A DNA stretch of 64,000 nt from Acidiferrobacterales bacterium (GCA_028820695.1 JAPPIB010000004.1:1-64000), one strand, 5' to 3'. Shown: positions 6,875-58,013, counted from the first letter of the stretch. Translations and numbers: made by a program. The notes: a model not told the origin generated them from the sequence alone.

Positions 6875-7072
6875 GTGCTGGCGGCATACCGGGACGTCGC
6901 GCAAGCCGAGGCAACGGGAAAACCGAGCCATGAGCGCGGTTCGGTGGTCTTGGCTTATGTACGACTGATGGCCGCCGAGGTTCAAGATGACCACAGTCGG
7001 GAAAGGCTCCAGAATCAAATCAGGACCAAATGGATTCATCTGCGCCCGTGCGCGGCCGGGAACTTCAATTGA
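6875..7072 (+). CDS. Possible small protein before the anchor genes
   Basis: This is a 65-codon frame starting with GTG about eight bases after GAGAGG and ending at 7072, which is 43 bases inside the start of the next gene if that begins at 7030. The product is charged and helical-looking (AYRDVAQAEAT, RLQNQIRTKW). I recognise no family. The alternative start of the next gene at 7075 would leave a two-base gap, which would fit coupling. Without homologues this stays a weak call. Confidence 0.3.
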   Translation: MLAAYRDVAQAEATGKPSHERGSVVLAYVRLMAAEVQDDHSRERLQNQIRTKWIHLRPCAAGNFN

Positions 7073-7419
7073 AGATGGCGGAACGATCGGTCAACATCGA
7101 CTTGCTTGTCTTTGTCACCCAGCGGGTTACAGGGGCCTTGCTTGCACTGTTCGTACTGGTACATCTGATCACGATCATATACGCGGTTCAGGGAGATCTT
7201 TCGGTTGCCGAAATCGTCTCGAGAGTCCGCGGAAATGTCGCCTGGATAATATTCTACGGAGTATTCATCGTTACAGTGGTCGTGCACGCGATGATCGGAC
7301 TGCGCAATATTCTCATCGAAATGTCCAGCCTGAACAGACGGACGATCGATCTGACAGTGATCACCTACGCAGCGGTTACCCTGTTGCTGGGGACTGAGAC
7401 CATCAAGGCGATCTGGTAA
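7030..7419 (+). CDS. Succinate dehydrogenase/fumarate reductase-like membrane anchor 1
   Basis: This 129-residue protein has three predicted membrane helices (about 28-50, 72-92 and 105-125). It resembles the cytochrome b/anchor subunits of succinate:quinone oxidoreductases, with QRVTG at the first helix, a histidine in LVHL, and HAMIGLRNI before the third helix. The ATG at 7030 has AGGA six bases upstream. An ATG at 7075 is the alternative and would better match usual anchor lengths. It is followed after six bases by a second anchor gene and then by an SdhA-like gene, so the three likely form one membrane complex. The iron-sulfur subunit that normally bridges such anchors to the flavoprotein is not encoded here. 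Confidence 0.7.
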   Translation: MDSSAPVRGRELQLKMAERSVNIDLLVFVTQRVTGALLALFVLVHLITIIYAVQGDLSVAEIVSRVRGNVAWIIFYGVFIVTVVVHAMIGLRNILIEMSSLNRRTIDLTVITYAAVTLLLGTETIKAIW

Positions 7420-7425
7420 TCTGGC

Positions 7426-7764
7426 ATGCGAATCAGAGGCAATCCGAATCAGCTGGCGTTCGTCGTCCACCGGATTTCCGGTCTGTGTCTGGCTGCGTTC
7501 ATCCCGATTCACCTGTATGTCATGTCCCTTCTCATCACGAACCCGCAGCAGCTGGACGCCTTTCTGACCTGGACATCTACCCCGGCGGTCAAGCTGTCAG
7601 AGTCCTTGCTGATCATGCTTGCCGGCATCCATCTGGCCGGCGGCATCCGAATACTGGTGGTTGAATGGTTTTCGGTCAGTGGCGTAAAGAGTCGGTGGAT
7701 TTCAGTCGCCGCCGGGTTCTCTGTCATCTGCGGAATACTTTTTCTGACAGCATCAGCCCAATAA
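7426..7764 (+). CDS. Succinate dehydrogenase/fumarate reductase-like membrane anchor 2
   Basis: This 112-residue protein has three membrane helices and SdhC-type signatures. HRISG at the N-terminal helix matches the quinone/heme region of SdhC, IHLY holds a possible heme-ligand histidine, and GIHLAGGIRIL precedes the last helix. It probably pairs with the preceding anchor to hold the flavoprotein encoded 23 bases downstream at the membrane and pass electrons to quinone. This is inferred from order and motifs. Confidence 0.7.
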   Translation: MRIRGNPNQLAFVVHRISGLCLAAFIPIHLYVMSLLITNPQQLDAFLTWTSTPAVKLSESLLIMLAGIHLAGGIRILVVEWFSVSGVKSRWISVAAGFSVICGILFLTASAQ

Positions 7765-7787
7765 GTTCCATCTATCTGCGCTCGTCT

Positions 7788-9494
7788 ATGAAGAAGATCC
7801 AGACCGATGTCCTGATTCTCGGAAGCGGTGGTGCGGGACTGCTGGCCGCAATTCATGCCCATGATGCAAACCCGTCGCTCAAGGTTACTGTTGCCACCAA
7901 GGGACTTGCCGGCAAGTCCGGCTGTACACGAATGGTACAAGGTGGATACAACGTCGCTTTGGGTGCCGGTGACTCAATCGAGAGGCATTTCCAGGACACC
8001 ATCGAGGGCGGCAAATGGATCAACGATCAGGAACTGGCGTGGGCTCTGGTTTCATTGGCGCCCGAGCGCGTTCTCGAACTGGAAAACCGACATGGCTGCT
8101 TCTTCGATCGCAACCGCGACGGTACCCTTCATCAGAAGGCATTTGCCGGTCAGACTTTCGACCGTACCGTTCACAAGGGTGATCTTACAGGCATCGAGAT
8201 CATGAACCGACTCGCGGAACAGGTGCGACGTCGCCCGGTTTCGATCCTTGAGGAACACCGGGCAATCGAACTGATACCCGATCAGGGGCGAAGTCAGATC
8301 GCTGCCGTGCTGTTGATTGACATCCGCAGCGGAAAATTCGTGCTGATCCAGGCTCGAGCGGTCATCATCGCCACGGGTGCCGGTCCGACCATGTATAAGT
8401 TTCATACACCGTCCGCCGACAAGTCCTGTGATGGATTGGCTCTCGCACTTCGCAGCGGCCTGGTTCTCAGAGACATGGAAATGGTTCAGTTTCATCCGAC
8501 AGGACTTCTGGCCGGTGCGCAGACCAGAATCACAGGCACGATCATTGAGGAAGGACTGCGCGGAGCCGGCGGGCATCTTTTGGACGGCGCAAACTACAGA
8601 TTCATGCAGGACTACGATGAGCGGGGCGAGCGCGCAACACGCGACGTTGTGAGCCGCGCGATGTTTGAACGGATGCGCTCAGACGCCACCGGACCCAATG
8701 GCGGTGTGTTCATCTGCATGAGCCATCTGGATGAAAACATGGTGCGCACACAATTCAAGGGAATGGTAAAACGCTGCCGGGACATCGGGCTGGATCTGGT
8801 TTCGCAACCGGTTGAGGTGACACCGACAGCGCATTATGTCATGGGCGGTATCGAAATCGATGTTGACTGCTCTGCCTCAATGGCGGGTGTATTCGCCGCA
8901 GGTGAGGACTCGGGTGGTGTTCACGGCGCCAATCGACTCGGCGGCAATGGTGTCGGGAATTCGACTGTTTTCGGCGGAATCGCCGGAGACTCTGTCGCCA
9001 CCTGGCTGAATTCACAGATAGAGTTTGCGCAACCCGATGCCGACATATTGGAGACTGCCGTGACCCGATCGTTATTGCCATTTGAAAAGCCGGTTCAGGG
9101 GCTGAATCAAGTCCGCGAGTCGCTCTACGATGTCATGTGGGAACATGCAGGCATCATGCGCTCGCACCAGAGTCTCGAGATCGCATCCACCGAACTGAAC
9201 GATATTGAACAGGCACTCGAACAGTGCGGTGTCGATTCGTCAACCCGCTCGTTCAATCTGGGCTGGCACGACTACCTGAACCTGAAAAATCAGATCCTGG
9301 TGAGTCACGCAATTGTCGCTGCCGCGAAACAACGGACCGACTCGCGCGGCGCACACTATCGATCCGACTGTCCACACATGGGCCGGCTGCGAGATTCCGA
9401 ATTCACACGACTCGTCATGCAAGATAATAAAATAGGCACATATTGCGAAAAAGTCAGATTTACCCGTCTTCAACCACCGGATGATGGCGCGTAA
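7788..9494 (+). CDS. SdhA/FrdA-like flavoprotein lacking the covalent-FAD histidine
   Basis: This 568-residue FAD protein is of the succinate dehydrogenase/fumarate reductase/aspartate oxidase family. The start at 7788 gives the expected N-terminal GxGxxG (LGSGGAG, 11-17). Catalytic positions of E. coli SdhA are kept: His236 (QFHPTG), Arg285 (ATRDVV), His349 (TAHYVMGG) and Arg383 (ANRLGGN). Two things differ. The histidine that covalently holds FAD is Cys46 here (SGCT for SHT), as in enzymes with non-covalent FAD. The threonine of the TEG dicarboxylate-binding motif is Glu254 (IEEGLRG). No SdhB follows; fumarase-like genes do. It may oxidise succinate or a related dicarboxylate, or reduce fumarate. 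The substrate is uncertain. Confidence 0.8.
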   Translation: MKKIQTDVLILGSGGAGLLAAIHAHDANPSLKVTVATKGLAGKSGCTRMVQGGYNVALGAGDSIERHFQDTIEGGKWINDQELAWALVSLAPERVLELENRHGCFFDRNRDGTLHQKAFAGQTFDRTVHKGDLTGIEIMNRLAEQVRRRPVSILEEHRAIELIPDQGRSQIAAVLLIDIRSGKFVLIQARAVIIATGAGPTMYKFHTPSADKSCDGLALALRSGLVLRDMEMVQFHPTGLLAGAQTRITGTIIEEGLRGAGGHLLDGANYRFMQDYDERGERATRDVVSRAMFERMRSDATGPNGGVFICMSHLDENMVRTQFKGMVKRCRDIGLDLVSQPVEVTPTAHYVMGGIEIDVDCSASMAGVFAAGEDSGGVHGANRLGGNGVGNSTVFGGIAGDSVATWLNSQIEFAQPDADILETAVTRSLLPFEKPVQGLNQVRESLYDVMWEHAGIMRSHQSLEIASTELNDIEQALEQCGVDSSTRSFNLGWHDYLNLKNQILVSHAIVAAAKQRTDSRGAHYRSDCPHMGRLRDSEFTRLVMQDNKIGTYCEKVRFTRLQPPDDGA

Positions 9495-10437
9495 TCAACA
9501 CCTTGACATGATTTCCGAAACTTCAATCCAGGACGCCGCATTTGAGATCACCCGGCAGGCGGCAATCCGCATACCGGAGGACTATCGAAGCGGTATACGG
9601 GATATCCGCCAATCCGAGCAGAATTCCCTGAGCTGTTTTGTCCTGGATACCATGATCGACAACTGGGATACTGCAGTTGCAGATCAGCGACCGATGTGTG
9701 CGGACACCGGACTGCCTCGATACTATGTGAAGTTCGGCAATGAGGTTTCCATCGAAGGAGGATTCGTCGCATTGGAACGAGCGCTGCGCAGGGCGACCGC
9801 CGAAGCGACCCGGGCAGTTCCACTTCGTCCGAACAGGGTCCATCCGCTCACCCGACAGGATTTCAATAACAATGTCGGAGCGCGGGCTCCTGAAATCGAG
9901 TATTCGGTGGAACCGGATGCCGACTGGTTGGATATTACGACCGTTCACAAGGGTGGACTGTTCGGAACCGACTACCGGATGCTGTTTCCGGGTGACGGAT
10001 GGGAAGGAGTGAAGAAAATGTTCCTGGATACCATGATCCAGTTTGGCCGGCGGGGGCTCGCCTGCCAACCTGCGATCGTCGGCGTCGGCATGGGAGGCAG
10101 CAAGGATACGTGCATGGTGTTGGGCAAGCAGGCAGCCTGTCTGCGGGTTGTCGGAGACCGACATCCTGACCCGAAGATCGCGGAACTTGAAGACGAGCTG
10201 AAAGAACTGGGAAATCAGATCGGGATGGGACCGATGGGATTTGTCGGCAACTCTATGGTGGTCGACTGTCATATTGAAGTTGCCCATACCCACACAGGAG
10301 GAATGCCGGTCAGTATCCATAGTTTCTGTCTGTCCTCGCGACGCGCAGTGGTTCGAATCAGTTCCGACGGGGACACACAGTTCCGCACCGACCCTCAGTG
10401 GTTCACGCCATACCACAGACGGGAGGAACTTGAATGA
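9481..10437 (+). CDS. Class I fumarate hydratase-type lyase, alpha subunit
   Basis: This is the alpha subunit of a two-subunit [4Fe-4S] hydro-lyase of the class I fumarase / L(+)-tartrate dehydratase / mesaconase family. Motifs include CADTG with the first cluster cysteine, the NNVGARAP block, VGMGGSKD and a later cysteine near PVSIHSFC. It overlaps the flavoprotein gene by 14 bases if the ATG at 9481 is used; an in-frame ATG at 9508 is an alternative without a better ribosome site. The beta subunit follows with a 4-base overlap. Next to an SdhA-like gene the simplest reaction is fumarate to malate. Mesaconate or tartrate as substrate cannot be excluded. Confidence 0.85.
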   Translation: MMARNQHLDMISETSIQDAAFEITRQAAIRIPEDYRSGIRDIRQSEQNSLSCFVLDTMIDNWDTAVADQRPMCADTGLPRYYVKFGNEVSIEGGFVALERALRRATAEATRAVPLRPNRVHPLTRQDFNNNVGARAPEIEYSVEPDADWLDITTVHKGGLFGTDYRMLFPGDGWEGVKKMFLDTMIQFGRRGLACQPAIVGVGMGGSKDTCMVLGKQAACLRVVGDRHPDPKIAELEDELKELGNQIGMGPMGFVGNSMVVDCHIEVAHTHTGGMPVSIHSFCLSSRRAVVRISSDGDTQFRTDPQWFTPYHRREELE

Positions 10438-11108
10438 GCAATGCCGGACCCAATACCATCAAGTTGCGCGCGCCGGTCTCGACTTCCGACCTCAGAAAAC
10501 TTCAAATCGGTGATGTGGTTTATATCGACGGCGTGCTATACACCGGACGTGAAGGGGCCTATCGGAAAATCATCGATGAGAACCTGACGCCGCCACTGGA
10601 CTTGTTGGGCACATCGAATGTGAACTTTCACTGCTCGCCGGCAGCCGCCGTCCAGCCCGACGGCTCCCACACCGTCGGTGCCGTAACCGCTACTGCGAGT
10701 TTCAGATTCTCCAAATGGATGCGCAGATGGTTCGATGTGTCTGGCTGCAAGGTTGTTATCGGCAAGGGGGGAATGCCTGCACAAGACTACTCACAGTATT
10801 TTGTGCCGGCCGGTGCCGTCTATCTGACGACTGTCGGTTACGGAACCGGCGCTCTTCTTGGTCGCGGCATCAGACAGGTATCGAATGTTTTCTGGCTTGA
10901 GGAACTGGGTATCGCACAGGCAATCTGGGTTTTCGATGTAGCCGAGTTCGGTCCATTTCTGGTTGAGAGCGACCTTGACGGAAACAGTCTTTTTGAACAA
11001 TCCAACAAGGCCATCGATGAGAATATCGAAACACTCTACAAAGGACTGAAAGAGCCTGCACTGCGTCGATTCGGAGAGACGACACAGCGAACCGACGAGG
11101 TCATCTGA
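10434..11108 (+). CDS. Class I fumarate hydratase-type lyase, beta subunit
   Basis: This 224-residue beta subunit completes the heterodimeric hydro-lyase. Family features are GDVVYIDGVLYTGRE near residues 27-41, the swivelling-domain glycine-rich PAAAVQPDG and GKGGM at about 110-114. The ATG overlaps the alpha-subunit stop (ATGA), which indicates translational coupling. It is the last gene of the plus-strand unit that starts at 6052. The next gene, at 11130, is convergent. Confidence 0.85.
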   Translation: MSNAGPNTIKLRAPVSTSDLRKLQIGDVVYIDGVLYTGREGAYRKIIDENLTPPLDLLGTSNVNFHCSPAAAVQPDGSHTVGAVTATASFRFSKWMRRWFDVSGCKVVIGKGGMPAQDYSQYFVPAGAVYLTTVGYGTGALLGRGIRQVSNVFWLEELGIAQAIWVFDVAEFGPFLVESDLDGNSLFEQSNKAIDENIETLYKGLKEPALRRFGETTQRTDEVI

Positions 11109-11129: not shown

Positions 11130-11972
11130 TCAGGGTTTTTCCCCTCGAGCCAGACGCTCATTCACATCATCGATCACATCCAGCAGCTCTGGAAACTCGT
11201 TGATCACGTAATGTGAACCTCCCTTGAGCAACAGCTCCCGTGTCTTTGACAGACGATGTGCGACATCCTCTCCTGAAACAGATTGCGCCTGTTCCAGACT
11301 GTTGATATTCATATAGTTGCTGTAGCGGGCGATTCCCACCGTCCAGCAACCGGCTTCGAGCCCCTCAGCGACTCCGCTTACCGTATCGTCGACCTTGATC
11401 ACTGACTGAATGGGATGAATGTCCAACAAGTCCAGATTGCGATAAATCATGAATGGCCTGGGCCTTGCACCATGCATGACCTCATCGCCGGCGACTGTTG
11501 TATCAGGATGATAGCCCTGCCGTCTCGCATCCGCTTCCAGAATATCCACCATGCTCCGTACGAACCCCGTCGTCATCCCGATCTTGATACCGTCGGACTG
11601 GATTTCTTTCGTGGTCTCGGCCACGCCCGGAAGAAGCGTCGTATACTGTGGCAGACAGTCAAGTTGCATCGGCACGAAGTCGGCATACATATTGTCAATG
11701 TCGTCCTGCGTCGGATCAGCATCCCGGACCTTGCGCCAGCGTTCCCTGATTTCCGGATCTCGCGTCAATGCTGCGATATGCAGGTCTTTACGAAGCCCCA
11801 TCGGTCCGCGTGCCTCCTCCATGGTGATTTCCACACCCTGTCTGGCAAATACGTCCACGAAAACCACCGCTGGAGCAATCACATAGGCATCTGCCACCGT
11901 TCCGCTCCAGTCAAGAATCAAACCTTTCACTTTTCCGCAGTAGGTTCGCGTATATACATAATCAGATTTCAT
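11130..11972 (-). CDS. phnX: Phosphonoacetaldehyde hydrolase-like HAD enzyme
   Basis: PhnX cleaves phosphonoacetaldehyde to acetaldehyde and phosphate through a Schiff base. This 280-residue protein shows the PhnX signature: Asp21 in LILDWSGT, the EARGPMGLRK block with Lys62, and VDDTVSGVAEG. Asp21 and Lys62 are 41 residues apart, as Asp12 and Lys53 are in the Bacillus cereus enzyme. The second residue after the nucleophile is Ser where PhnX usually has Ala. The start at 11972 is chosen because YTRTYCGKV aligns with usual PhnX N-termini; the open frame runs 34 codons further upstream. It is the last gene of a six-gene minus-strand set with a FAD amine oxidase-like gene next to it. A related aldehyde substrate is possible. 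Confidence 0.75.
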   Translation of the reverse strand: MKSDYVYTRTYCGKVKGLILDWSGTVADAYVIAPAVVFVDVFARQGVEITMEEARGPMGLRKDLHIAALTRDPEIRERWRKVRDADPTQDDIDNMYADFVPMQLDCLPQYTTLLPGVAETTKEIQSDGIKIGMTTGFVRSMVDILEADARRQGYHPDTTVAGDEVMHGARPRPFMIYRNLDLLDIHPIQSVIKVDDTVSGVAEGLEAGCWTVGIARYSNYMNINSLEQAQSVSGEDVAHRLSKTRELLLKGGSHYVINEFPELLDVIDDVNERLARGEKP

Positions 11973-12093
11973 CGGCATTGTCTGGATCAAGTTCCCTGTT
12001 TTCTCAGGTTGAGTATATCGCGCTTTGAGATCAACCGCCGTCGGGCTGATCGGCGGCCGCATCAGCCACACCAAATTGCCGATTCGACTGGAT

Positions 12094-13434
12094 TCACTTT
12101 TCCCTGCCGGCTTTCAGCTCACCCCAGCGCAGGGACAGGTTCCCGCCGATCGAGGCAAACGGTTCAGGCGGCATTCTTTTGGGCTGCGCTTGGCCAAGAT
12201 AGTATTCCAACGATGCTGAGCGCACGCCGCAGATCAATTCAGCAATCAATTTTCCAGCAAGCGTTCCCCTGGTCGTACCCAATCCATTCTGGCAACATGC
12301 CGAATACAGATTTTCTTCCAGTTTTCCAAATGCGGGAACGGAGTTGCGGCTCAGACAGAGCAGCCCACCCCATTGATACTCCATCGTCACGTCACCAATC
12401 TGTGGGAAACGAGCCTGAAACGTACTTTGATGATGCCTTATGACACTGTTCATCCGCTTTTCGGAAATGGTTCGGCCCGGTGCCCAGGAGATTCCGTTAC
12501 GAATAACAATCCGGTCACCCGAAGTTCCTGAAATCCTCCTGACCGTCGAGCCGAATGGATCTGACGGTGTCAGTCCCCATCGAGCTTCACCGCCAAGTAA
12601 GTGTATTTCATCGGGTGTCAGCCGACGCGTCATCGAGGCATACAGGAAAATATGGACAAGGCGACGGTTGAAATAGCCGAAACTCTCCACATGGCCATTG
12701 ACCGCGAGAACAACTGTCTGCGCGTCAATCGAGGCGATCGGCGTCTTCAATCGCCAGCCGTCACCGGTTCTGGCAAGGTCGATAATCGGTGTATTCTCGA
12801 AAATCTCGACGCCGCAAGAATGAAGTCCGCGGGCGAGTCCTGTGATATATGCTGCCGGCTGAATCACCGCTGTTTGCGGGGTCGCGATGCCCGACCGATA
12901 ATAGTCAGAGCCAGTAATCTCCTTCATTTTCCCCGCATCAAGCATCTCATAGTTCTCACCGAGCTGTTCAAGACGCCTGGCAAAACTCATGTTGTGTCTG
13001 TGGCCCGATTCGGTTGCCGCCGCGTTGATTTTTCCAGGCTTGCCGAATACGTCGCTCGGCATGGAAAACTCATTGCACACTTCATCTGCAAATTCGATCG
13101 CCTCCCGATTCATTGAAATCTGCTGACGGTCGTCATCCAGCGTTCCCAGGTAATTGCTGGATCCGAGATTGTGCGGCACATCGATCATGAAACCGGAATT
13201 GCGACCCGCAGGCCCTTCGGCGATGCTCCTGGCCTCAACAACAGTAATTCGTGCTTTCGGATTCAGTTCGGAAAGACGCTTTGCCGCTGACAATCCGGCA
13301 AAACCGGCTCCGACTACCGCCACATCCGTAGACTGCGTCCCAGTCAATTTCGGATATCCCGCATCAGCGGGGATGATTCTTGCCCAGCCGGAATCACCGG
13401 GATCGAACGGTAGTTTTTGTACTTTCATGAACAA
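12094..13434 (-). CDS. DadA/PuuB-like FAD-dependent amine oxidoreductase
   Basis: This 446-residue FAD enzyme is of the DAO superfamily, with the dinucleotide fold starting at VVGAGFAGLSAAKRL (about 40-54) and AGRNSGFM near 78-85, as in gamma-glutamylputrescine oxidase-like proteins. These enzymes oxidise C-N bonds of primary or N-methylated amines. Relatives called PbfC/PbfD are known from phosphonate clusters, where they make phosphonoacetaldehyde from 2-aminoethylphosphonate or its N-methyl form. Because a PhnX-like gene follows on the same strand, production of a phosphonated or similar aldehyde is a reasonable inference, not a demonstrated role. No membrane segment is seen. Confidence 0.75.
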   Translation of the reverse strand: MFMKVQKLPFDPGDSGWARIIPADAGYPKLTGTQSTDVAVVGAGFAGLSAAKRLSELNPKARITVVEARSIAEGPAGRNSGFMIDVPHNLGSSNYLGTLDDDRQQISMNREAIEFADEVCNEFSMPSDVFGKPGKINAAATESGHRHNMSFARRLEQLGENYEMLDAGKMKEITGSDYYRSGIATPQTAVIQPAAYITGLARGLHSCGVEIFENTPIIDLARTGDGWRLKTPIASIDAQTVVLAVNGHVESFGYFNRRLVHIFLYASMTRRLTPDEIHLLGGEARWGLTPSDPFGSTVRRISGTSGDRIVIRNGISWAPGRTISEKRMNSVIRHHQSTFQARFPQIGDVTMEYQWGGLLCLSRNSVPAFGKLEENLYSACCQNGLGTTRGTLAGKLIAELICGVRSASLEYYLGQAQPKRMPPEPFASIGGNLSLRWGELKAGREK

Positions 13435-13559
13435 TGCTGCCGGCTGAGATCGGATGCGCTGCCGATGCCCGCGACCCTGTTCAGTCGATCAGCAACCGGT
13501 TTCAGGTCCAATTGGAAAAATCCTTAAGTTCAGTCCCTGCCTGACCGGGCCCGCAAGAA

Positions 13560-14456
13560 TCAGTTCAGCCGATCGATAGTCGAGTTCATTTCCCGAATGA
13601 CATCGGACAGATGGCTCTTCTCGTCCTCATCGAGTGGCTGCATGGGTTTTCGCGGTGGTCCGCAGTCCAGTCCGCGCAAGGTCATGCCGTATTTGATGCA
13701 CTGAATGAACTTCCCGCCCTGTTCCAGCACCCGCATCAATGGCATCATTGCTGACATGATCTGCCGGCCCTTGTCGAAGTTTCCTTCCAGTACGCACGTC
13801 CGAAACAGGGCGATGTGCGCTTCGGGTGCGAAATTGCCACCGGCACAGACCCACGATGTCGCACCCCAGGCAAAAAATTCAAGGGCCTGATCATCCATAC
13901 CGCAACTGACTTGGATGTGCGGGTAGTCAACCGCCAGCAGATGCAGTCGGTCGGGACTTCCCGAACTCTCCTTGATGGCACAGAAGTTGGAATTGTTCCG
14001 GAGCATGTCGAGTGTCGTCTCATCCATGCTGACTGACATGCGGCCGGGATAGTTGTAGAGAATGACCGGAAGATTCGCTGCCTCGTCGACAGCCAGTGCA
14101 TGCATCGCGATTTCACGTCCTGTCGGGCAGGCGTAAGGCGGTGTCGCGACGAGCAATCCGTCCGCGCCGGCACTCTTCGCCTGTTGTGCAAAGTAAACAC
14201 TGTCTTCTGTGCGGATCGCACCGGTACCGACGATGAGCGGAACACGTCCGTTGATGAAGTCTTTTGCCAGTTTCATCAATTCAACGCGTTCTTCGGCACT
14301 TTGAGCATAGTACTCGCCTGTCGTTCCCCCAACGATGATTCCATGGACCCCCGAATCGATCAGAAAATCGACAGTCTGCGCAAAACGGTCGATATTGATT
14401 GTGTAGTCAGCGTTGAACGGGGTGACGACAGGAGGGTAGATTCCTTCAAACTTCAT
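13560..14456 (-). CDS. DapA/NAL-family lyase or synthase
   Basis: This 298-residue class I aldolase belongs to the dihydrodipicolinate synthase/N-acetylneuraminate lyase family. It forms a Schiff base with pyruvate-type substrates through Lys162 (FCAIKESSG). Tyr134 lies in the YNYPGR motif, and the GGTTGEY loop is at 43-49. The start at 14456 is the first ATG that gives the family N-terminus (MKFEGIYPPVVTPF). Its place inside a catabolic set with two FAD amine enzymes and a PhnX-like enzyme argues against lysine biosynthesis. A retro-aldol or decarboxylating step on an amine-derived oxo acid is more likely, but the substrate cannot be named. Confidence 0.8.
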   Translation of the reverse strand: MKFEGIYPPVVTPFNADYTINIDRFAQTVDFLIDSGVHGIIVGGTTGEYYAQSAEERVELMKLAKDFINGRVPLIVGTGAIRTEDSVYFAQQAKSAGADGLLVATPPYACPTGREIAMHALAVDEAANLPVILYNYPGRMSVSMDETTLDMLRNNSNFCAIKESSGSPDRLHLLAVDYPHIQVSCGMDDQALEFFAWGATSWVCAGGNFAPEAHIALFRTCVLEGNFDKGRQIMSAMMPLMRVLEQGGKFIQCIKYGMTLRGLDCGPPRKPMQPLDEDEKSHLSDVIREMNSTIDRLN

Positions 14457-14577
14457 GATGGCGGTCCCAAAACTTCGAAATGACTGTAAATGTGAACTGG
14501 TATCCCGGTACTGTGTTCCCAATCCGTGTGTCGGACCGATCGCCTCGAACCGGAATTGAATCCGTCATGTTGTGATC

Positions 14578-16998
14578 TTATGCCCTCAGACGAACGTTTT
14601 GCGGGTCGTACGGCGGCAGGTCCAAAACGGTCGCGGTTCGCCTCACTCCCAAAATCGGCACTTCAAAGGTGGCGCCGGATCGCGCAAACTGAGGTTCGAC
14701 ATAGACGAAAGCCAGACTGACACCTGTCCGATGTCCGAACGCTCCGCTGCAGACAATCCCCATAGGCCGGTCACCGTCCAGTGCGGGTTCATTGCCGAGG
14801 CAGTCCGCATCATCGACATTGACGGAAACCAGTACCAACTTGGTCTTGATGCCCTCGGACTTTCTCGCCAGAACACTTTGCTTTCCGACAAATGAACTTT
14901 CGTAATCCACGAATCTCTCGATGTCAGCTTCAACCGGTGTGATTTCAGTCGTCAATTCACTTCCCCAGCCCTTGTAGCCTTTCTCCAACCGCATACAGTT
15001 GACCGCATAGGACCCAAACCAGCCTAGACCGTATTCCTCGCCGGCCTGCTCCAATTGCGAGCAAAGCGATTCCATCGAATTCATTGAATGATACAGCTCC
15101 CAACCAAGTTCTCCGACATACGAAACCCGCAGCGCGATGACATCAATTCCACCGACCTTGATCTCCCGGCCTGTCAACCAACGGAAGTTATCGTTATCCA
15201 ATGCGGTATCGGTCAGTTTCGAAAGCAGATCACGCGATTTCGGACCTGCGACAGCAAGCATGCCCAACTTGTCAGTCACATCTTCTATGCTGACATCCTC
15301 GCCGTTTTCGACATGTTGCACCATCCAGTCAAGATCATGCTGCTGGGCAACGATCGCCGAGGTCAGAAAGAACCGATCATCAGCCAGCCGGGTCAACGCG
15401 ACCTCACATTCGATGCCGCCCAAGGTGGTCAGCATGTGGGTGAGTGAAACCCCGCCGGCTCGCTTGGCGACACGGTTGGCTCCGATACGATTGAGAAACT
15501 GCTCCGCGTCCGAGCCGGTCACCATGTACTTCGAAAACGCTGTCAGATCCGCTAAACCGACGCGTTCTTGAACACATCTGCATTCTGCAGCAACAGGATC
15601 AAACGCGTTGGTCCTGCGAAATCCGTATTGCTCCTCGCTTCCATCAAGCGAAAACCACTTCGGCCGCTCCCATCCGTAATACTCACCGTAAACGGCACCT
15701 TTCGCTTTCAGTCTGTCATAGATGGGTGTGGTCTTGACAGGACGCCCCGCTTCGCGAAATTCTCCCGGAAAGTGTACCTGATACATTTCCTGATATTCAT
15801 CGATTGACTTGTCAACGACATAACGACCGGGAAGGTTCGCATATTCTCCGTATCGTCTGGGGTCCACTTCCCGGACATTGATTTCGGTCTGTCCGTGCAC
15901 CATCCACTGCGCGAGATATTTTCCGACACCGGGTCCCTGGGTGATGCCGATCGATGCACCGCAACACAGCCAATAATTCTCAAGTCCGGCTGCCGGGCCC
16001 ATCAGATATCCTCCGTCCGGGGTATGCGTGATCGGTCCGTTCACGACCCGTTTGATCCCGGCCTGGCCGAAAAGAGGCACGCGTTCGGCAGCCTTGATCA
16101 GGCTATGGTCAAGCCGGTCAAGTTCTTCCGGCAGAAGTTCCATGTCGAAACTCCAGTCGATACCGTCCAATCCCCAGGCAGCCGCTTGCGTCGTCTCATA
16201 CGGTCCGACCAGTATTCCCTTCTGTTCCTGGCGGATGTAACACGATGCGACGGGGTCACGGACAACCGGCGGCTCGGTATCCAGCGCCTCGACTTCGGGA
16301 AGATTCTCGGTGACGAGATATTGGTGCTGCATATTGACAATCGGCAGTCGGAATCCTGACATCTGTGTCACCTGATCGGCAAAGCTTCCCGCTGCATTGA
16401 CAACATGCTCACAGACAATCGAACCCTGTTCCGTGATCACCTTCCATTCACCGCCGGTCGTACGCTCAACGGCGGTGACACGATTCCTGCGTATGATCTC
16501 CACCCCGCGGTTGCGCGCTCCGACAGCCATCGAATTGGTACTGCTCGCCGGGTCAGTATGCCCGTCGTTCGGAGTATAGAAACCGAGTTTCACATCATCG
16601 GTGACCAGCAAGGGGTGAATCTCCTTCATTTCAGAATGACCGACGAGATGCGACTCGGCACCGATGTAGTCAAGAATTCCCTTGACGTAGTGAAACCAGT
16701 CGACCTCGGCATCCGAAATTGCGAGGCGCAGCGCACCGCAGCCATGCCATCCCGTCGACTGGCCGGTCTCAGCCTCGAGTCTGGCATAGAGCCTGACAGC
16801 ATAATCATGGACTTTGGCCATATTCAGGCTGCCGATGAAATTCGGAATCAAGCCCGCCGCGTGCCAGGTCGATCCAGATGTCAACTCACCCTTGTCAATC
16901 AGTACGACGTCATCCCAGCCTTCAAGCGGCAGATGGTAGGCGAGGCCGACGCCCATCGCACCTCCACCGATGATTACAACTCTTGCATGTCCTTTCAA
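14578..16998 (-). CDS. Dimethylglycine/sarcosine dehydrogenase-like, DAO plus GcvT domains
   Basis: This 806-residue two-part enzyme has an N-terminal DAO-type FAD domain (about 1-380), followed by the FAO linker and a GcvT folate-binding domain in the C-terminal half. Such proteins oxidatively remove N-methyl groups and pass the one-carbon unit to tetrahydrofolate. His46 in SGSTWHAAGL matches the histidine that holds FAD covalently in dimethylglycine dehydrogenase. The start codon is TTG, seven bases after the stop of the dioxygenase gene, so the two are likely coupled. The substrate may be dimethylglycine or another N-methyl amine made by the upstream enzymes. Methylene-tetrahydrofolate from this step would explain nearby formate handling. 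Confidence 0.88.
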   Translation of the reverse strand: MKGHARVVIIGGGAMGVGLAYHLPLEGWDDVVLIDKGELTSGSTWHAAGLIPNFIGSLNMAKVHDYAVRLYARLEAETGQSTGWHGCGALRLAISDAEVDWFHYVKGILDYIGAESHLVGHSEMKEIHPLLVTDDVKLGFYTPNDGHTDPASSTNSMAVGARNRGVEIIRRNRVTAVERTTGGEWKVITEQGSIVCEHVVNAAGSFADQVTQMSGFRLPIVNMQHQYLVTENLPEVEALDTEPPVVRDPVASCYIRQEQKGILVGPYETTQAAAWGLDGIDWSFDMELLPEELDRLDHSLIKAAERVPLFGQAGIKRVVNGPITHTPDGGYLMGPAAGLENYWLCCGASIGITQGPGVGKYLAQWMVHGQTEINVREVDPRRYGEYANLPGRYVVDKSIDEYQEMYQVHFPGEFREAGRPVKTTPIYDRLKAKGAVYGEYYGWERPKWFSLDGSEEQYGFRRTNAFDPVAAECRCVQERVGLADLTAFSKYMVTGSDAEQFLNRIGANRVAKRAGGVSLTHMLTTLGGIECEVALTRLADDRFFLTSAIVAQQHDLDWMVQHVENGEDVSIEDVTDKLGMLAVAGPKSRDLLSKLTDTALDNDNFRWLTGREIKVGGIDVIALRVSYVGELGWELYHSMNSMESLCSQLEQAGEEYGLGWFGSYAVNCMRLEKGYKGWGSELTTEITPVEADIERFVDYESSFVGKQSVLARKSEGIKTKLVLVSVNVDDADCLGNEPALDGDRPMGIVCSGAFGHRTGVSLAFVYVEPQFARSGATFEVPILGVRRTATVLDLPPYDPQNVRLRA

Positions 16999-17005
16999 TG
17001 TTCCA

Positions 17006-17884
17006 CTACCTGATGTTGTTGAAGTTCACGATGGAGTCAGTCCGGTCCTCAGCCCTCGCCAGACCGGATGGCATGGCAATCGACCTGCGAAAGTTCTCAA
17101 TCGCCTGGCGGGAGAAATCGGCTTCGGGACCTGACTCAAGCTCGAAGTTGCCGAACATATCGGTTCCCCGAACCAGCATGGCTGAATCGTGTCCCCCATT
17201 CCTGAGTTGAATGACATCGGCGGCAATGTAGGCAATCGACAGCCCGACCCGGGAACGGTCCGAACTATTCGCACCGGAACCATGCAACACCATGCTGTGG
17301 TGCATCGAAAACTGCCCCGGACGAAGCTCAACCATCAGCCGGTTGTGTTCGTCCTGCGGTGTCAGCTGCGCATTCTGACCGCTCAGCAGCATGTTGTTCT
17401 TGTCATCGCTGTTGTCATGAGAGCGAAATCCGTTCTCGTGACTCGCGCGTATCACCTGCATCGCGCCATTGTCCTCAGATGCGTCGGTCAGGGCCAGCCA
17501 GACGCTCAAGACGCCATTCGGCGGCTGCAAACCCCAATATCGCAAGTCCTGATGCCATCCGACATGTGCGGTGTCACCAGGCTCCTTGGCGAAAAATGAT
17601 GCGCCCCACATCAGGATGTTCGGTCCGAGTATCGATTCGACCGCGTCCAGAATTCTCGGGTTGCGGACAACCTCATTCACCCAGGTTGAGACCAAATGCG
17701 TCTTGACCAGCTGCTTGGACTCAATCCATCCCGCCATACGTTCACGCAGCGCAAGGAAATTCGGAATCATTGACAGGGCCTCGTGCTCATCATAAGCGGT
17801 CAACGGAGCGACAATACCCTGTTGCCAGTACGTATTGACCTGGCCGTCAGTCAACATGCCATTCGTATTGGCTGACTTTACCAT
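17006..17884 (-). CDS. Phytanoyl-CoA dioxygenase (PhyH)-family 2OG/Fe(II) enzyme
   Basis: This 292-residue non-haem iron dioxygenase has iron ligands His111 and Asp113 (WHQD) and His201 (VLHGSG), with Arg212 as the likely 2-oxoglutarate ligand. PhyH-family members include ectoine hydroxylase and the 2-aminoethylphosphonate dioxygenase PhnY, so a small charged amine substrate is plausible. There is no neighbouring PhnZ-type HD oxygenase, so a PhnY-PhnZ pathway is not supported. The gene starts with ATG 30 bases after the aldolase-like gene and precedes the dimethylglycine dehydrogenase-like gene by seven bases. It may hydroxylate an N-methyl or carbon position before demethylation (inference). 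Confidence 0.8.
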   Translation of the reverse strand: MVKSANTNGMLTDGQVNTYWQQGIVAPLTAYDEHEALSMIPNFLALRERMAGWIESKQLVKTHLVSTWVNEVVRNPRILDAVESILGPNILMWGASFFAKEPGDTAHVGWHQDLRYWGLQPPNGVLSVWLALTDASEDNGAMQVIRASHENGFRSHDNSDDKNNMLLSGQNAQLTPQDEHNRLMVELRPGQFSMHHSMVLHGSGANSSDRSRVGLSIAYIAADVIQLRNGGHDSAMLVRGTDMFGNFELESGPEADFSRQAIENFRRSIAMPSGLARAEDRTDSIVNFNNIR

Positions 17885-17913
17885 GATCGGTCCATAGTCG
17901 ATTGGTGATGAAA

Positions 17914-18717
17914 TCAGTCGCGGTAGGAGCGATCAATGCTGTCGAGCTGGCGTAACAGGGCGGGCCATTCGTAAGTGCCGCAAGGAGCGGCGGTCTGATA
18001 CTGTTTGGCGGCGTGTTCGCAGACATCCCCCGGCGGCAGGTGTATCTCCCTTCCCATTGCGAGCACGTCCATCTGAACCCGACACGACAATTCCAAATAG
18101 TACATCCGCATATAAGCTTGCGCGACCGTATCTCCCGTCGTCAGCAATCCATGATTGCGCATGATCATCACCGGATTGTCACTGAGGCTGGCGGCCAGAC
18201 GCTCGCGTTCATCCAGATCAAGTGACAAGCCTTCATAATCGTGATACGACACCCGGTTATAGAACTGAAATGCATCCTGAACCAGGGGCATGAAGCCTTC
18301 TTTCAGTGCCGACACCGCCAGTGCGGCGCGGCTGTGAGAATGCATGATGCAGTTCACATCCTCGCGCTCGTTGTAGATCGCACTGTGGATCACAAAGCCG
18401 GTAAAGTTGCTGTCACTGGTGTCGATAATCTCACCATTGGCATCGGTGGGCGGCACCGCAACCTGCCCGTTCTCATCCAGTGTGACCAGATTGGACGCAG
18501 TCACCTCGTCAAACCGCAATCCGAAAAGATTGATCAGGAAACGATTCGGCTGGCCGGGCACGCGTGCACTGATGTGGTTCCACACAATATCACTGAATCC
18601 ATTCAGTTCCGCCAGTCGATGACAGGCGGCAAGATCAACCCGCGTCTGCCATTCCTCGGTGGAGACTGTCGACCACTTGCCGGTAACAACATTGTCTGAA
18701 ATCTTCTGACTTTTCAT
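17914..18717 (-). CDS. Class II aldolase/adducin-family protein
   Basis: This 267-residue protein has the class II aldolase/adducin fold. Zinc-ligand histidines are in IMHSHSRAAL and RNHGLLTTG, the usual two blocks of L-fuculose-phosphate aldolase-like enzymes and of related decarboxylases. The start at 18717 is preferred because GGAG lies three bases before the ATG; the frame also runs 15 codons further upstream to a TTG. It is the first gene of the six-gene minus-strand set, so the promoter is expected between 18720 and 19100. The substrate is unknown. An aldol cleavage upstream or downstream of the amine-oxidising steps is possible. Confidence 0.8.
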   Translation of the reverse strand: MKSQKISDNVVTGKWSTVSTEEWQTRVDLAACHRLAELNGFSDIVWNHISARVPGQPNRFLINLFGLRFDEVTASNLVTLDENGQVAVPPTDANGEIIDTSDSNFTGFVIHSAIYNEREDVNCIMHSHSRAALAVSALKEGFMPLVQDAFQFYNRVSYHDYEGLSLDLDERERLAASLSDNPVMIMRNHGLLTTGDTVAQAYMRMYYLELSCRVQMDVLAMGREIHLPPGDVCEHAAKQYQTAAPCGTYEWPALLRQLDSIDRSYRD

Positions 18718-19207: not shown

Positions 19208-19669
19208 ATGTACAAATCGCTATTGATTGACCCGGTCAAATGTACCAGTTGCCTGCAGTGTGAGCTGGCATGCTCATTCGAAAACGAGGGCGTGTTCAAT
19301 CCGGCAAGATCCCGGATCAAGATTTTCGAGTTTGAGCATGGACTCAAAGCCATTCCCTATACCTGCACGCAGTGCGAGGAAGCCTGGTGTCTGCATGCAT
19401 GCCCGGTTGAGGCCATTACGATCAACGCTCAGACTGGCGCAAAGGAAGTCAATGACTCGATCTGTGTCGGCTGCAAGGTCTGCACAATCGCATGTCCGTT
19501 CGGTACGGTCAACTACAATTCCGATTCCGGCAAGGTCATCAAGTGCGACCTATGCGGCGGCGACCCTCAGTGTGCGCAAGCCTGCCCGACCGGCGCGATC
19601 ACATATGTCGATTCGGATTGGACCGGTTATTCCCGAATGCGCGACTCAGCTGTGGAATCCCACGGCTGA
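19208..19669 (+). CDS. AorA-like ferredoxin with four [4Fe-4S] motifs
   Basis: This 153-residue polyferredoxin carries sixteen cysteines in four groups: CTSCLQCELAC, CTQCEEAWCLHAC, CVGCKVCTIAC and CDLCGGDPQCAQAC. This layout matches the electron-transfer subunit AorA of tungsten aldehyde oxidoreductase complexes (as in Aromatoleum) and related small subunits of molybdenum or tungsten enzymes. A strong GAGGAGA ribosome site precedes the ATG. The next gene, 39 bases downstream, encodes an AorC-like FAD protein. The catalytic AorB subunit, which would normally be adjacent, is missing from the whole window. Confidence 0.82.
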   Translation: MYKSLLIDPVKCTSCLQCELACSFENEGVFNPARSRIKIFEFEHGLKAIPYTCTQCEEAWCLHACPVEAITINAQTGAKEVNDSICVGCKVCTIACPFGTVNYNSDSGKVIKCDLCGGDPQCAQACPTGAITYVDSDWTGYSRMRDSAVESHG

Positions 19670-19708
19670 GACAACGCATCTCCGTATTGCATACCGAGGA
19701 GGCGACAC

Positions 19709-20956
19709 GTGCAACACGTTATAGTCGGTGCCGGTCCAGCCGGCGTCATCGCGGCAGAAACCCTTCGCAAGAGGTCACGCGATGATTCCATCATCATCGT
19801 TGGAAACGAATCCTATCCGGCGTATTCCCGCATGGCGATTCCCTACCTGCTTGCAGGCGATGTTGAGGAGAACGGAACCTACCTCCGTCATAACGACAAT
19901 CATTTCGACAGACTCGGGATCGAGATTCGTCAAAATTCTGTAACGAGCATCAACCCCGGCGAGAAAACCGTCGGACTCGCACAAGGACCTGATCTGTCCT
20001 ATGACCGACTGTTGCTGGCAACCGGGTCCAGCGCAATCCGTCCGCCCATCAGTGGAATGGACTCGGCGCGCGTGCACAACTGCTGGACACTGGATGATGC
20101 TCACAGAATGCTGGGCGATGTTCAGGCGGGAGACCGGGTGGTACTGCTCGGAGCTGGATTTATCGGCTGCATCGTTTTGCAGGCATTGGTTTCGATGAAA
20201 CTCGATCTGACTGTAGTGGAACTGGCGGATCATATGCTTGCCAGAATGATGGATCACGAGGGCGGCCAAATGATCCAGCAATGGTGCGAGGGCAAGGGCG
20301 TTGCCGTCAGAACCGGGTCGAAGGCCGTTGCTGTGACCGAGCAGAGCAATCAACTTGAGATTGAACTGGCTGACGGTTCCACCATCGCAGCCGATCATAT
20401 CGTGTGTGCCGCAGGCGTTCGTCCCAATATTCAGATGCTGGAAGGCAGCGGTATCAAGGTTGATGCCGGCATCTTGGTTGACGATCAGTTACAGACCAAC
20501 GTAGCCGATATCTTTGCGGCCGGTGATGTCGCCCAAGGGCCTGACCGAAGTACCGGCGACCTGCAGGTGCACGCAATTCAGCCGACAGCAAGTGAACACG
20601 GCAGAGCGGCTGCATTTCAGATGTCCGGCGATCATTCCCCCTACGGCGGCAGCCTGTCAATGAATGTACTGAACACGCTTGGGCTGATTACAAGTTCTTT
20701 TGGACTGTGGGATGGTGTCGACGGCGGTGACAGGACTTCGGTGTGCGACGCAGCCACAAATCGCTATCTTCGGCTGGAATTTCAGGACGATCTGCTCGTC
20801 GGTGCGCTGGCGATCGGACTGACGCAGCATGTCGGTGTCCTGCGAGGCTTGATTCAGACCAAAGTCAGACTTGGACATTGGAAAGAATTGCTGATGAGTG
20901 ATCCTTCACTGATCATGAGCGCATATCTTGACCGCATGCAGGGGACGCGTACCTGA
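19709..20956 (+). CDS. AorC-like FAD/NAD(P)H oxidoreductase
   Basis: This 415-residue pyridine nucleotide-disulfide family flavoprotein has an FAD motif at the N-terminus (VGAGPAG, about 5-11), a second dinucleotide motif near LLGAGFIG (about 149-156) and the FAD-closing block IFAAGDVA (about 270-277). It resembles the AorC subunit and NAD(P)H-nitrite/rubredoxin reductases. The GTG start has GAGGAGG eight bases upstream. With the preceding polyferredoxin it forms an electron-transfer module that could link NAD(H) to a partner oxidoreductase. AorC identity is inferred from the pairing, because stand-alone reductases of this family are common. Confidence 0.75.
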   Translation: MQHVIVGAGPAGVIAAETLRKRSRDDSIIIVGNESYPAYSRMAIPYLLAGDVEENGTYLRHNDNHFDRLGIEIRQNSVTSINPGEKTVGLAQGPDLSYDRLLLATGSSAIRPPISGMDSARVHNCWTLDDAHRMLGDVQAGDRVVLLGAGFIGCIVLQALVSMKLDLTVVELADHMLARMMDHEGGQMIQQWCEGKGVAVRTGSKAVAVTEQSNQLEIELADGSTIAADHIVCAAGVRPNIQMLEGSGIKVDAGILVDDQLQTNVADIFAAGDVAQGPDRSTGDLQVHAIQPTASEHGRAAAFQMSGDHSPYGGSLSMNVLNTLGLITSSFGLWDGVDGGDRTSVCDAATNRYLRLEFQDDLLVGALAIGLTQHVGVLRGLIQTKVRLGHWKELLMSDPSLIMSAYLDRMQGTRT

Positions 20957-33296: not shown

Positions 33297-34838
33297 CTAC
33301 TTGCGTGCGCCCTGAACCAGGCGATCAAGGATCATGGCGCAGAACAGGATCGAGAATCCAGCCAGAATTCCCTGCCCCACGTTTGCATACTGCAGCGCTT
33401 CCAGCACATCTTCTCCCAGGCCTTTGGCCCCGATAAGCGATGCGACAACAACCATGGCCAGCGATAACATGATCGTCTGATTGATTCCAGCCCGTATCGA
33501 CGGGCTCGCCAATGGCAGGTCCACTCTGGTGAAAAGGTACCATTTGCTGGCGCCGAACGAAATCGCGGCTTCGCGCACGCTCTCAGGGACACCGCGAAGA
33601 CCCAGCACAGTGAGGCGCACCACCGGTGTTCCCCCGAAAATCATGGTGGTAACCACCGCCGCAGGTTTTCCGGTTCCAAAAAATGCGATCACCGGGATCA
33701 TGAAGACAAACGCCGGCATGGTCTGCATGAAATCCATGATCGGCTGAATGAATTTATAGAACCGGGGCCTGCGGGCGCAATACATCCCCAGCGGAATGCC
33801 GATCGCGATCGAAAGACAGGCTGCAGTTCCCAAAAGAGCCAGTGTCGTCATCGCCTTGACCCAGAATCCCAGCAATCCCATGTAAGCCAGGAATGCGCCG
33901 GACCAAATGGCGGTCCTGATGCCAGCGGTGAGCCACGTCAGCAAAACTATAAAACTCGCAATCACAATCCACGGCGTATTGACGAACAACAGTTCCAGCG
34001 CGTCCAGAATCAACCGGATGCCAAAAGTGATGAAATCAAATATCGCCTCTCCGTTAGTGACGCAGAAGGTAAAGAACCCTTCCACCCACGCAATGCTGGT
34101 CAGACGGATGTCAGGATCCGTCGGAAATTGGGTCAGGGTCTCAAACTGGCCGGGAAAACAGTAGTGGTACACGGCCGCAGCAACGATCAGAACCATGAAG
34201 ACACTACTGAAAAAAAGCTGTCTGGTCGGCATTCCGGAACGAATGCTGCGATCGGAAACCCATTCTGAGATCCGGGACTCCAAAGCTGTATTGGCAATGG
34301 CCGACTGGGCGGCTTTGACAACTATCAGGATGATCGCTCCGGCCAGTGCGATCCATATGCCCTGATCGGCGATTTCCTGGGCCTCCAGCCTGATTCCGCC
34401 GATTGAATCCTCCAGGGATTTGACCGTACGTCTATACACGTCAACCTTGTCCGACTGCGCCTCTATTGCAGCGCTCAGTTGCTGGCGACGCAATTCCAGC
34501 GTTCCCTCAATCGAGGCGATACGCTCGCGGGCTTCCGCCGCAAGATCACCGAACAATCCACGCGCCAGCTGCACATAGCCCAAAGTCTCAACAATCAGCA
34601 AGGGAATCGCCCACATCCACAAGCCGCGGGCACCGAACCAGACCGGTCCGAGAATCCCGGCGGTGGGATTGAAAGTGGGTGTGAATCGGGAACTTTCGCC
34701 GATCCTGTCAAACTGGGTAATATAGTAGTCTGGATTCGTATGTACGAATGATCGTATGTTTTCTCGACGTTCTGCGGCGTATTCTTCGGCCGCTTCTATA
34801 TCAATAGCGTCAAGTTGGTTTTCCACTTTTTCTGTCAT
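33297..34838 (-). CDS. proW: Glycine betaine/proline-type ABC permease with long N-terminus
   Basis: This 513-residue permease has its C-terminal half (about 320-510) as a normal OpuAB/ProW domain, with the EAA-like loop SVREAAISFGASKWYLFTR. The first 250 residues are unusual. They hold a membrane segment near 75-95, a charged helical region (about 100-155) likely to form a coiled coil, and two more hydrophobic segments. E. coli ProW has about 354 residues. The ATG overlaps the proV stop by four bases. With ProX and ProV it should import betaines, choline or proline in an ATP-driven way. Confidence 0.88.
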   Translation of the reverse strand: MTEKVENQLDAIDIEAAEEYAAERRENIRSFVHTNPDYYITQFDRIGESSRFTPTFNPTAGILGPVWFGARGLWMWAIPLLIVETLGYVQLARGLFGDLAAEARERIASIEGTLELRRQQLSAAIEAQSDKVDVYRRTVKSLEDSIGGIRLEAQEIADQGIWIALAGAIILIVVKAAQSAIANTALESRISEWVSDRSIRSGMPTRQLFFSSVFMVLIVAAAVYHYCFPGQFETLTQFPTDPDIRLTSIAWVEGFFTFCVTNGEAIFDFITFGIRLILDALELLFVNTPWIVIASFIVLLTWLTAGIRTAIWSGAFLAYMGLLGFWVKAMTTLALLGTAACLSIAIGIPLGMYCARRPRFYKFIQPIMDFMQTMPAFVFMIPVIAFFGTGKPAAVVTTMIFGGTPVVRLTVLGLRGVPESVREAAISFGASKWYLFTRVDLPLASPSIRAGINQTIMLSLAMVVVASLIGAKGLGEDVLEALQYANVGQGILAGFSILFCAMILDRLVQGARK

Positions 34839-35911
34839 GACACATCGGCTCCTTCTATGACAGTGCGTAAGATATCTTTCTTGGTGATGACACCGACATC
34901 AATGTCCTGGTCCTCGACCACAATCGGTGCGTCGTTGTCGATGGACAACTCAATCAACTTGCTAAGGGTCTCGCTTTCGTTGATTCTCGGTGCGTCTGCA
35001 GGCAGGGGTTCATTGGCAGCCAGATACTGATCCAGCGGCTTCATCACAACATGGGCACGGACCACCTTGAGGCGGGAAATACCGGCCACAAAATCGGCTA
35101 CGTAATCGTCAGCGGGGCTCATCACAATATCCTCGGCCGTACCGATCTGCACGATCATGCCGTCACGCATGATCGCGATACGATTACCGATTCGGACCGC
35201 CTCATCCAGATCGTGTGTGATGAAAACCGTAGTCTTTTTCATCATCTCCGAAAGGCGGAGAAACTCATCTTGCAGCTGGCGCCGGATCAGCGGGTCCAGT
35301 GCACTGAACGGTTCATCCATCAACAGGACATCGGGGTTGGCGGCGAGGGCGCGGGCGAGACCGACACGCTGCTGCATGCCGCCGGACAGCTCGTGGGCGA
35401 ACTTGCTGCCCCATGCACCCAGTTCGACAATGTCCAGGATTGCGGCAGCATGCCGCATTCGCTCATTCTTGCTGACCCGTCGGATTTCCAACGGCATCGC
35501 AACATTATCGAGAACTGACCGATGCGGCAACAGCGCGAAATTCTGAAATACCATTCCGATATTACGATTGCGAAACTGTTGCAACTGCGTGTATTCCAAG
35601 GCCAGAACATCAGTGCCGTCAATGGTGATTTTTCCGGATGTGGGCTCCAGCAGGCGGTTGAAATGCCTGACCAGTGTCGACTTTCCACTGCCGGAAAGAC
35701 CCATGACACAGAAAATTTCGCCTCGATTGACGCGGAGACTGGCGTCCGCGACACCGACTACCGCATTGAATTCCGCAAGCACCTGCGCCTTGGTAAGACC
35801 GTCCTCCTGGACGGCCTTCATTGCCTCAGTGGCATTTGTCCCGAAAATTTTCCAGACATTCGAGACTTCAATGACCATATCGTCATTCATATCCAGGGAA
35901 GTGATCGTCAT
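34835..35911 (-). CDS. proV: Glycine betaine/proline-type ABC ATPase with CBS domain
   Basis: This 358-residue ATPase is of the ProV/OpuAA group. Walker A is LSGSGKST near residues 73-80, the signature is LSGGMQQR and Walker B ends VLLMDEP. A C-terminal CBS region (about 285-355, including IVVEDQDIDVGVITKKDI) probably senses ionic strength or nucleotides. The N-terminal extension before Walker A (residues 25-55, including EAMKAVQEDGLTK) is typical of this subgroup. The gene follows proX after a 90-base gap with a large hairpin and overlaps proW. Confidence 0.9.
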   Translation of the reverse strand: MTITSLDMNDDMVIEVSNVWKIFGTNATEAMKAVQEDGLTKAQVLAEFNAVVGVADASLRVNRGEIFCVMGLSGSGKSTLVRHFNRLLEPTSGKITIDGTDVLALEYTQLQQFRNRNIGMVFQNFALLPHRSVLDNVAMPLEIRRVSKNERMRHAAAILDIVELGAWGSKFAHELSGGMQQRVGLARALAANPDVLLMDEPFSALDPLIRRQLQDEFLRLSEMMKKTTVFITHDLDEAVRIGNRIAIMRDGMIVQIGTAEDIVMSPADDYVADFVAGISRLKVVRAHVVMKPLDQYLAANEPLPADAPRINESETLSKLIELSIDNDAPIVVEDQDIDVGVITKKDILRTVIEGADVS

Positions 35912-35940
35912 GACGCTGCGGGCTCTCGGTCAGTCTGTTG

Positions 35941-35999
35941 CCTGAAATGATGGCACCGGAGACTTTGCTCCGGCGCCATCATCATGCGTGAATTTCAGG
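35941..35999 (-). terminator. Intercistronic stem-loop between proX and proV
   Basis: The inner stem pairs 35949-35961 with 35968-35980 (13 bp, with one G-T wobble on the minus strand) around a 6-base loop. An outer perfect 8-bp stem pairs 35941-35948 (CCTGAAAT) with 35992-35999. It begins three bases after the proX stop. The T-run is weak, so partial termination or mRNA 3'-end protection is likely. That would make binding protein exceed the membrane parts. Confidence 0.65.
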
Positions 36000-36001
36000 A
36001 A

Positions 36002-36967: not shown

Positions 36968-37024
36968 AGTTTCCTCCTATGGATCTTATTTCCGGATATC
37001 TCCGGTATTAAAAAACTGACACAC

Positions 37025-56196: not shown

Positions 56197-56200
56197 CGAT

Positions 56201-57004: not shown

Positions 57005-57007
57005 GGG

Positions 57008-57910: not shown

Positions 57911-58013
57911 TGCCAAGGTAGTGGGTTGGTCAACTATGTAGCGGATGAAGCCAACGCTAGACTGTACAGCGCACAGTTTTTATCGTCTGAAAATCGGATA
58001 CACTGAAATACTG

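Follow-up and report, generated by a model that had tools for sequence, protein, structure and literature searches.

The DNA analyzed here is a 64,000-nucleotide stretch from an Acidiferrobacterales bacterium (GCA_028820695.1 JAPPIB010000004.1:1-64000), referred to below as the window, which carries on its minus strand, from position 18717 down to 11130, six uninterrupted open reading frames (ORFs). An initial annotation had placed a six-gene set here and read it as one pathway for an N-methylated aminophosphonate or related amine. The set itself is confirmed, with its six ORFs intact at that place and on that strand, and the family assigned to each product holds against Pfam and TIGR models. 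Counting from the likely starts and in the order already proposed, the first gene encodes a class II aldolase/adducin-family protein (17914-18717; PF00596, 154.9 bits; PRK07044 subfamily model, 306.6 bits with a cut-off of 207), the second a PhyH-family Fe(II)/2-oxoglutarate dioxygenase (17006-17884; PF05721, 101.6 bits), and the third a protein resembling dimethylglycine dehydrogenase (DMGDH), with the Pfam domains DAO, FAO_M, GCV_T, and GCV_T_C (14578-16998). This trio is followed by a DapA-family lyase (13560-14456; PF00701, 213 bits), a DAO-type FAD amine oxidoreductase (12094-13428; PF01266, 159 bits), and PhnX, a phosphonoacetaldehyde hydrolase (11130-11972). The small gaps that had been described in the upstream part are those of 29 and 7 bp inside the trio, after which spacers of about 121, 131, and 121 bp precede the DapA, FAD, and PhnX genes, respectively. 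For comparison within the genus, six genomes were used: the window genome, which is about 98% complete, and G001-G005, of which G004 is the sister and nearest relative. Between the window genome and G004, pN/pS lies at 0.10-0.28 across all six genes, and all six are therefore real, constrained genes under purifying selection.

In our judgment, these genes are probably three modules laid end to end and not one phosphonate pathway. The neighborhoods of the FAD enzyme bear directly on this point. Relatives, plasmids, and a set with one genome for each species were searched with this enzyme, and homologous enzymes at 37% identity or higher were found in 61 neighborhoods; the counts are minima, since some contigs are short. 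An aldehyde dehydrogenase (ALDH) gene and a DapA-family gene each occur near the FAD gene in 45 of these loci, a GntR regulator in 36, an MttB-family methyltransferase in 31, and ProV in 25, with an HpbD-like enolase-superfamily epimerase in 11 and a 4-hydroxyproline epimerase in seven. PhnX lies near the FAD gene in a single locus, that of G004, and PhnW in none, so that among the 61 the FAD gene does not repeatedly keep company with phnX, phnW, or phosphonate transport genes. Similarly, in 61 genomes queried with the FAD enzyme, the six families stand in their full order in no more than two, the window genome and another of its genus.

The phylogeny points the same way. In a maximum-likelihood tree, the window FAD enzyme pairs with that of G004 and next with those of G002, G003, and G005 (support 100/99), which adjoin MttB and, in G002, also DapA, ALDH, and a ProX-type protein. 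Scores against the phosphonate-oxidoreductase models fall far below their cut-offs (TIGR03329, 131 bits against 633; TIGR03364, 20 bits against 285). TIGR03329 also gave no match in 194 relatives, but the controls were silent too, and this says little about its presence in the order; the FAD profile matched no solved structure at E 1e-10. Nor does the enzyme group with PbfD: two PbfD-type enzymes taken from phnX loci of A. baumannii and Rhizobium reach only 20-30 bits with the profile of the module FAD enzymes, and they sit at the ends of very long branches in the tree. This comparison covered PbfD-type FAD enzymes, the only type recovered when a PbfB or PbfC reference was looked for next to PhnX in records of Azospirillum, Vibrio, Pseudomonas, and Comamonas. 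In 51 other FAD enzymes of the module, 69 positions are conserved, and at none of them do the window and G004 share a change; among 89 conserved DapA positions they share one, a conservative one. Judging from these alignments, changes would be expected after recruitment to a new substrate class, although their absence is no proof of unchanged specificity. By tree, profile, and neighborhood, this enzyme ranks as a typical betaine-module member, orthologous to the other module FAD enzymes.

The DapA-family protein belongs to the same association. It is 84% identical to its counterpart in G004 and retains the DHDPS-type GTTGE and YNxPGR motifs. The GntR-DapA-ALDH-(MttB)-FAD modules of Rhodobacterales and Rhizobiales resemble the window pair in both proteins (FAD 44-58%, DapA 55-75% identity) and in the order of DapA followed by FAD, but the window copy has no GntR, ALDH, MttB, transporter, or epimerase gene at the locus and is instead joined to the trio and PhnX. 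No orthologue of the module ALDH was found in the window genome, where the best match is 38% identical. We also considered a retro-aldol role for DapA, in which a 4-hydroxy-2-oxo phosphonate would be cleaved to phosphonoacetaldehyde and pyruvate by analogy with rhizocticin biosynthesis. This idea was dropped because dozens of loci carry the same DapA beside ALDH and MttB with no phosphonate gene detected.

What the module acts on may be read in part from the epimerases that accompany it elsewhere. An HpbD-like protein of Leisingera matches chains 4e8g (E 2e-159) and 4h2h (E 4e-144), its nearest chains being 4e8g and 4h2h/2pmq, which we take to be proline-/hydroxyproline-betaine epimerases of Paracoccus and Pelagibaca. 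The epimerase of a Rhizobium module exceeds its 4-hydroxyproline epimerase model and is shared with the S. meliloti-type hydroxyproline cluster (57%). Use of hydroxyproline and hydroxyproline betaine follows a logic of oxidase (DAAO family), deaminase (DHDPS family), and aldehyde dehydrogenase (PMC4113996), and the enzyme families of the module, like the logic of their order, are also those of the trans-4-hydroxy-L-proline clusters of S. meliloti (PMC4113996). Assignment of the module to the classical hydroxyproline cluster (HypO/HypD/HypH) was nevertheless dropped, since orthology to the S. meliloti proteins is lacking: DapA is 25% and ALDH 26% identical, and the FAD enzymes give no convincing alignment. 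By these comparisons, the module is a parallel set that appears to follow the hydroxyproline logic with different proteins. A betaine is therefore inferred as its substrate, most probably one resembling hydroxyproline betaine, yet the module is not filed under the classical pathway.

The widespread form of the module, DapA-ALDH-(MttB)-FAD, is possibly an uncharacterized parallel route. Its companions are betaine transporters and either HpbD-like or 4-hydroxyproline epimerases, with L036:5241-10653, L175-L216, and L055-L060 as representative loci. On plasmid pB of Cereibacter sphaeroides (L056:12973-19329), the module lies next to taurine/sulfoacetaldehyde genes, namely Xsc, Pta, and a putative sulfate exporter.

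As a third unit of the locus, the trio is independent of the others and genus-wide. It is present in all six genomes, each with an aldolase orthologue adjoining PhyH and DMGDH; DMGDH is 79-90% and PhyH 60-74% identical across the genus, and the nearest solved chain to PhyH is 6zyk (E 4.9e-38). DapA and FAD follow the trio only in the window and G004, and in G001, G002, G003, and G005 the trio stands without them. A pair of genes for a 4Fe-4S ferredoxin and an NADH-oxidase-like protein (window 19208-20956) adjoins the trio in the window, G003, G004, and G005 and lies about 9 kb away in G002. Outside the genus, the short loci that were examined showed no PhyH-aldolase pair. The DMGDH-like protein shares the full-length DAO-GcvT architecture of mitochondrial dimethylglycine dehydrogenase, aligning with chain 5l46 from end to end (795 residues, E 1.7e-194), and in G002 the trio follows an ABC transporter whose binding protein exceeds the cut-off of the choline model. 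For these two reasons, the substrate of the trio is likely a quaternary or tertiary amine, in keeping with the methylated-amine chemistry first suggested for the locus. Demethylation of dimethylglycine onto folate is the predicted activity, and the actual substrate may differ.

The genus copy of DMGDH, whose partners are PhyH and a class II aldolase, differs in this from several relatives about 50% identical to the window protein, which have an MttB-family methyltransferase directly beside them (L168:2785-6814, L169:3303-7471, L171:6560-10820, L173:8341-12366). These MttB and DMGDH-like pairs probably serve glycine-betaine demethylation.

PhnX stands apart from the five genes above. It exceeds the equivalog cut-off of TIGR01422 (282.5 against 220 bits), and D21, K62, H65, and D196, corresponding to the nucleophilic Asp, the Schiff-base Lys, the His, and the acid Asp, are shared without exception by the solved chain 2iof and by the copies beside PhnW or PbfA. 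With model score and catalytic residues in agreement, the window PhnX is by both sequence criteria a genuine phosphonoacetaldehyde hydrolase, as the initial annotation had it. Family placement divides the earlier proposal: the FAD enzyme falls in a non-phosphonate family, while PhnX stays with the phosphonatases, at 66-80% identity to copies beside PhnW, PhnA, PbfA, or phnS2.

The likely origin of PhnX is seen in its relatives. In G002, G003, and G005, it lies within about 3 kb of 2-aminoethylphosphonate (AEP) transporter genes (phnS2 over cut-off; phnS2-T-V), and PbfA stands between phnS2 and PhnX in G003, where it is over cut-off, and in G005, as a 91% orthologue. In more distant relatives, whose PhnX is 66-70% identical, PhnW and PhnA often adjoin PhnX. 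Two loci of the type phnS2-PbfA-PhnX without PhnW (L101:5985-9836, L102:8881-12739) are apparently dedicated to R-HAEP rather than AEP. Compared with the known hydrolytic clusters for AEP and R-HAEP, which combine phnSTV, PhnW or PbfA, and PhnX with the PbfB/C/D FAD enzymes (PMC10590968), the genus shares PhnX and, beside it, phnS2-T-V and PbfA, but the window genome lacks PhnW, PbfA, and phnS2 and its FAD enzyme is not of the PbfD type.

A trace of the lost transporter survives in the sister genome. The interval between FAD and PhnX in G004, about 1.1 kb, holds broken, inverted pieces of phnS2 (G004:C1:2726545-2727158, minus strand); in the corresponding 121-bp spacer of the window (11973-12093), compared with that of G004, no trace of phnS2 is left. 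In G002, the phn genes lie directly next to the trio in convergent orientation. The absence of the PhnW transaminase and of a phosphonate transporter, reported earlier for the locus, extends to the whole window genome, which has no PhnW, no AEP-binding protein phnS2, and no Ppd over cut-off, and no close PbfA. PhnX therefore looks orphaned here, with no known source of phosphonoacetaldehyde found. It was either orphaned recently or is fed by an unrecognized enzyme, for which the FAD enzyme is one candidate.

On its other side, PhnX is bordered by genes for a small membrane protein, an SdhA/FrdA-like flavoprotein, and a two-subunit class I fumarase (window 7030-11108), an arrangement conserved near PhnX in G001 and G004. 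The fumarase genes fumAB lie near PhnX in G001, G004, and the window, and because G001 has no FAD gene there, the fumarase-PhnX link appears older than the FAD-PhnX link.

Elsewhere in the window, about 15 kb from the six genes, ProX/ProV/ProW-like betaine/choline ABC transporter genes (36967-33297) lie downstream of a choline dehydrogenase gene (39986-38340), all on the minus strand (33297-39986). Spermidine/putrescine-type ABC transporter genes (PotA, PotC, PotB, and PotD-like) are found at 55096-59276.

Under the three-module explanation, aldolase, PhyH, and DMGDH would most likely carry out hydroxylation and demethylation of a quaternary or tertiary amine that may be imported by a choline/betaine-type ABC transporter, with DMGDH handing the methyl carbon to folate. 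DapA and FAD would be the remnant of the widespread GntR-DapA-ALDH-(MttB)-FAD betaine-catabolic module, in which FAD may oxidize a demethylated cyclic or secondary amine to a product for the DapA-fold enzyme to open or cleave. With ALDH and MttB lost here, the DMGDH of the trio may demethylate, and an unlinked ALDH may perform the last oxidation. Neither of these modules would make use of PhnX, the putative third module, which would derive from an aminoethylphosphonate locus with a decayed transporter. In the simplest history, the trio would have stood next to the phn genes, DapA-FAD would have been inserted between them, the transporter would have decayed, and a deletion would have set PhnX behind FAD.

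Several observations weigh against this explanation. No terminator-like site was found between FAD and PhnX, and as all six genes also share one direction, they could be co-transcribed. PhnX remains under constraint (pN/pS 0.14) despite the lack of a known substrate source in the genome, and its unique changes, 13 on the window branch against 6, amount to no significant acceleration (chi2 2.6). The hydroxyproline-betaine substrate assigned to the DapA-FAD module is itself only inferred, and the low identities to the S. meliloti proteins do not help it. Moreover, FAD enzymes are sometimes found beside phnX alone (PMC10590968). It is for this last reason that the pathway first proposed, in which PhyH and/or DMGDH would demethylate an N-methylated AEP, FAD would form phosphonoacetaldehyde as PbfC and PbfD do, and PhnX would cleave the C-P bond, is regarded as highly improbable rather than assigned no chance at all. 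Such a pathway would make use of a genuine, intact PhnX and of genes that are all constrained, and it would supply PhnX in a genome where, without PhnW, PbfA, or Ppd over cut-off, another substrate source is needed. It gives no role to DapA or the aldolase, however, and it draws on a FAD enzyme whose clade is otherwise not found beside PhnX, whose conserved positions are unchanged, and whose profile the PbfD-type enzymes of A. baumannii and Rhizobium barely match; in G004, the inverted phnS2 pseudogene parts this enzyme from PhnX, and the window genome has no phnS2 left. Very little probability likewise attaches to a later recruitment, in which the betaine-module FAD enzyme, once PhnW/PbfA and the AEP transporter were gone, would have come to feed PhnX from an N-methylated aminophosphonate, perhaps one demethylated by DMGDH.

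The trio and DapA-FAD could also form one new betaine pathway of this lineage, running from PhyH hydroxylation through DMGDH demethylation and FAD oxidation to ring opening or cleavage by DapA, with PhnX a mere neighbor. We rate this somewhat below an even chance, and it is compatible with the three-module explanation as its more integrated form. Both the window and G004 keep the order aldolase-PhyH-DMGDH-DapA-FAD, its five genes are all constrained, the window also holds a betaine ABC transporter, and DMGDH could partly replace the MttB that, like the module ALDH, is missing at the locus, no close ALDH having been found in the genome. The lack of an ALDH orthologue also counts against this reading, however, and the arrangement is seen in only two genomes of one lineage, the two modules are apart in G002, G003, and G005, and the spacers measure 121-131 bp. 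A further view, in which only the trio is active and DapA-FAD and PhnX are relics kept by chance while being lost, is unlikely: it accords with the loss of ALDH and MttB beside DapA-FAD and of the transporter and PbfA beside PhnX in the window genome, but the frames are intact, catalytic and conserved positions are kept, pN/pS is 0.14-0.28, and changes on the window branch are not significantly in excess.

Returning to the three modules, the locus is best described as a betaine/methylated-amine neighborhood of two modules, both probably for betaine breakdown, beside a true but apparently orphan phosphonatase. The initial annotation is in this sense partly supported, its observation standing as made and its joining of the six genes into a phosphonate pathway giving way to the affinity of the FAD enzyme with a betaine module. 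If true, recruitment of FAD to feed PhnX would constitute a new phosphonate pathway. Two uncharacterized betaine-catabolic units are indicated, the genus-wide aldolase-PhyH-DMGDH trio and the widespread DapA-ALDH-MttB-FAD module with its epimerases of the hydroxyproline-betaine type. More generally, transporter decay and deletion can juxtapose unrelated modules and so give rise to an attractive pathway prediction from operon structure, and comparison of orthologous loci exposes such false operon pathways.

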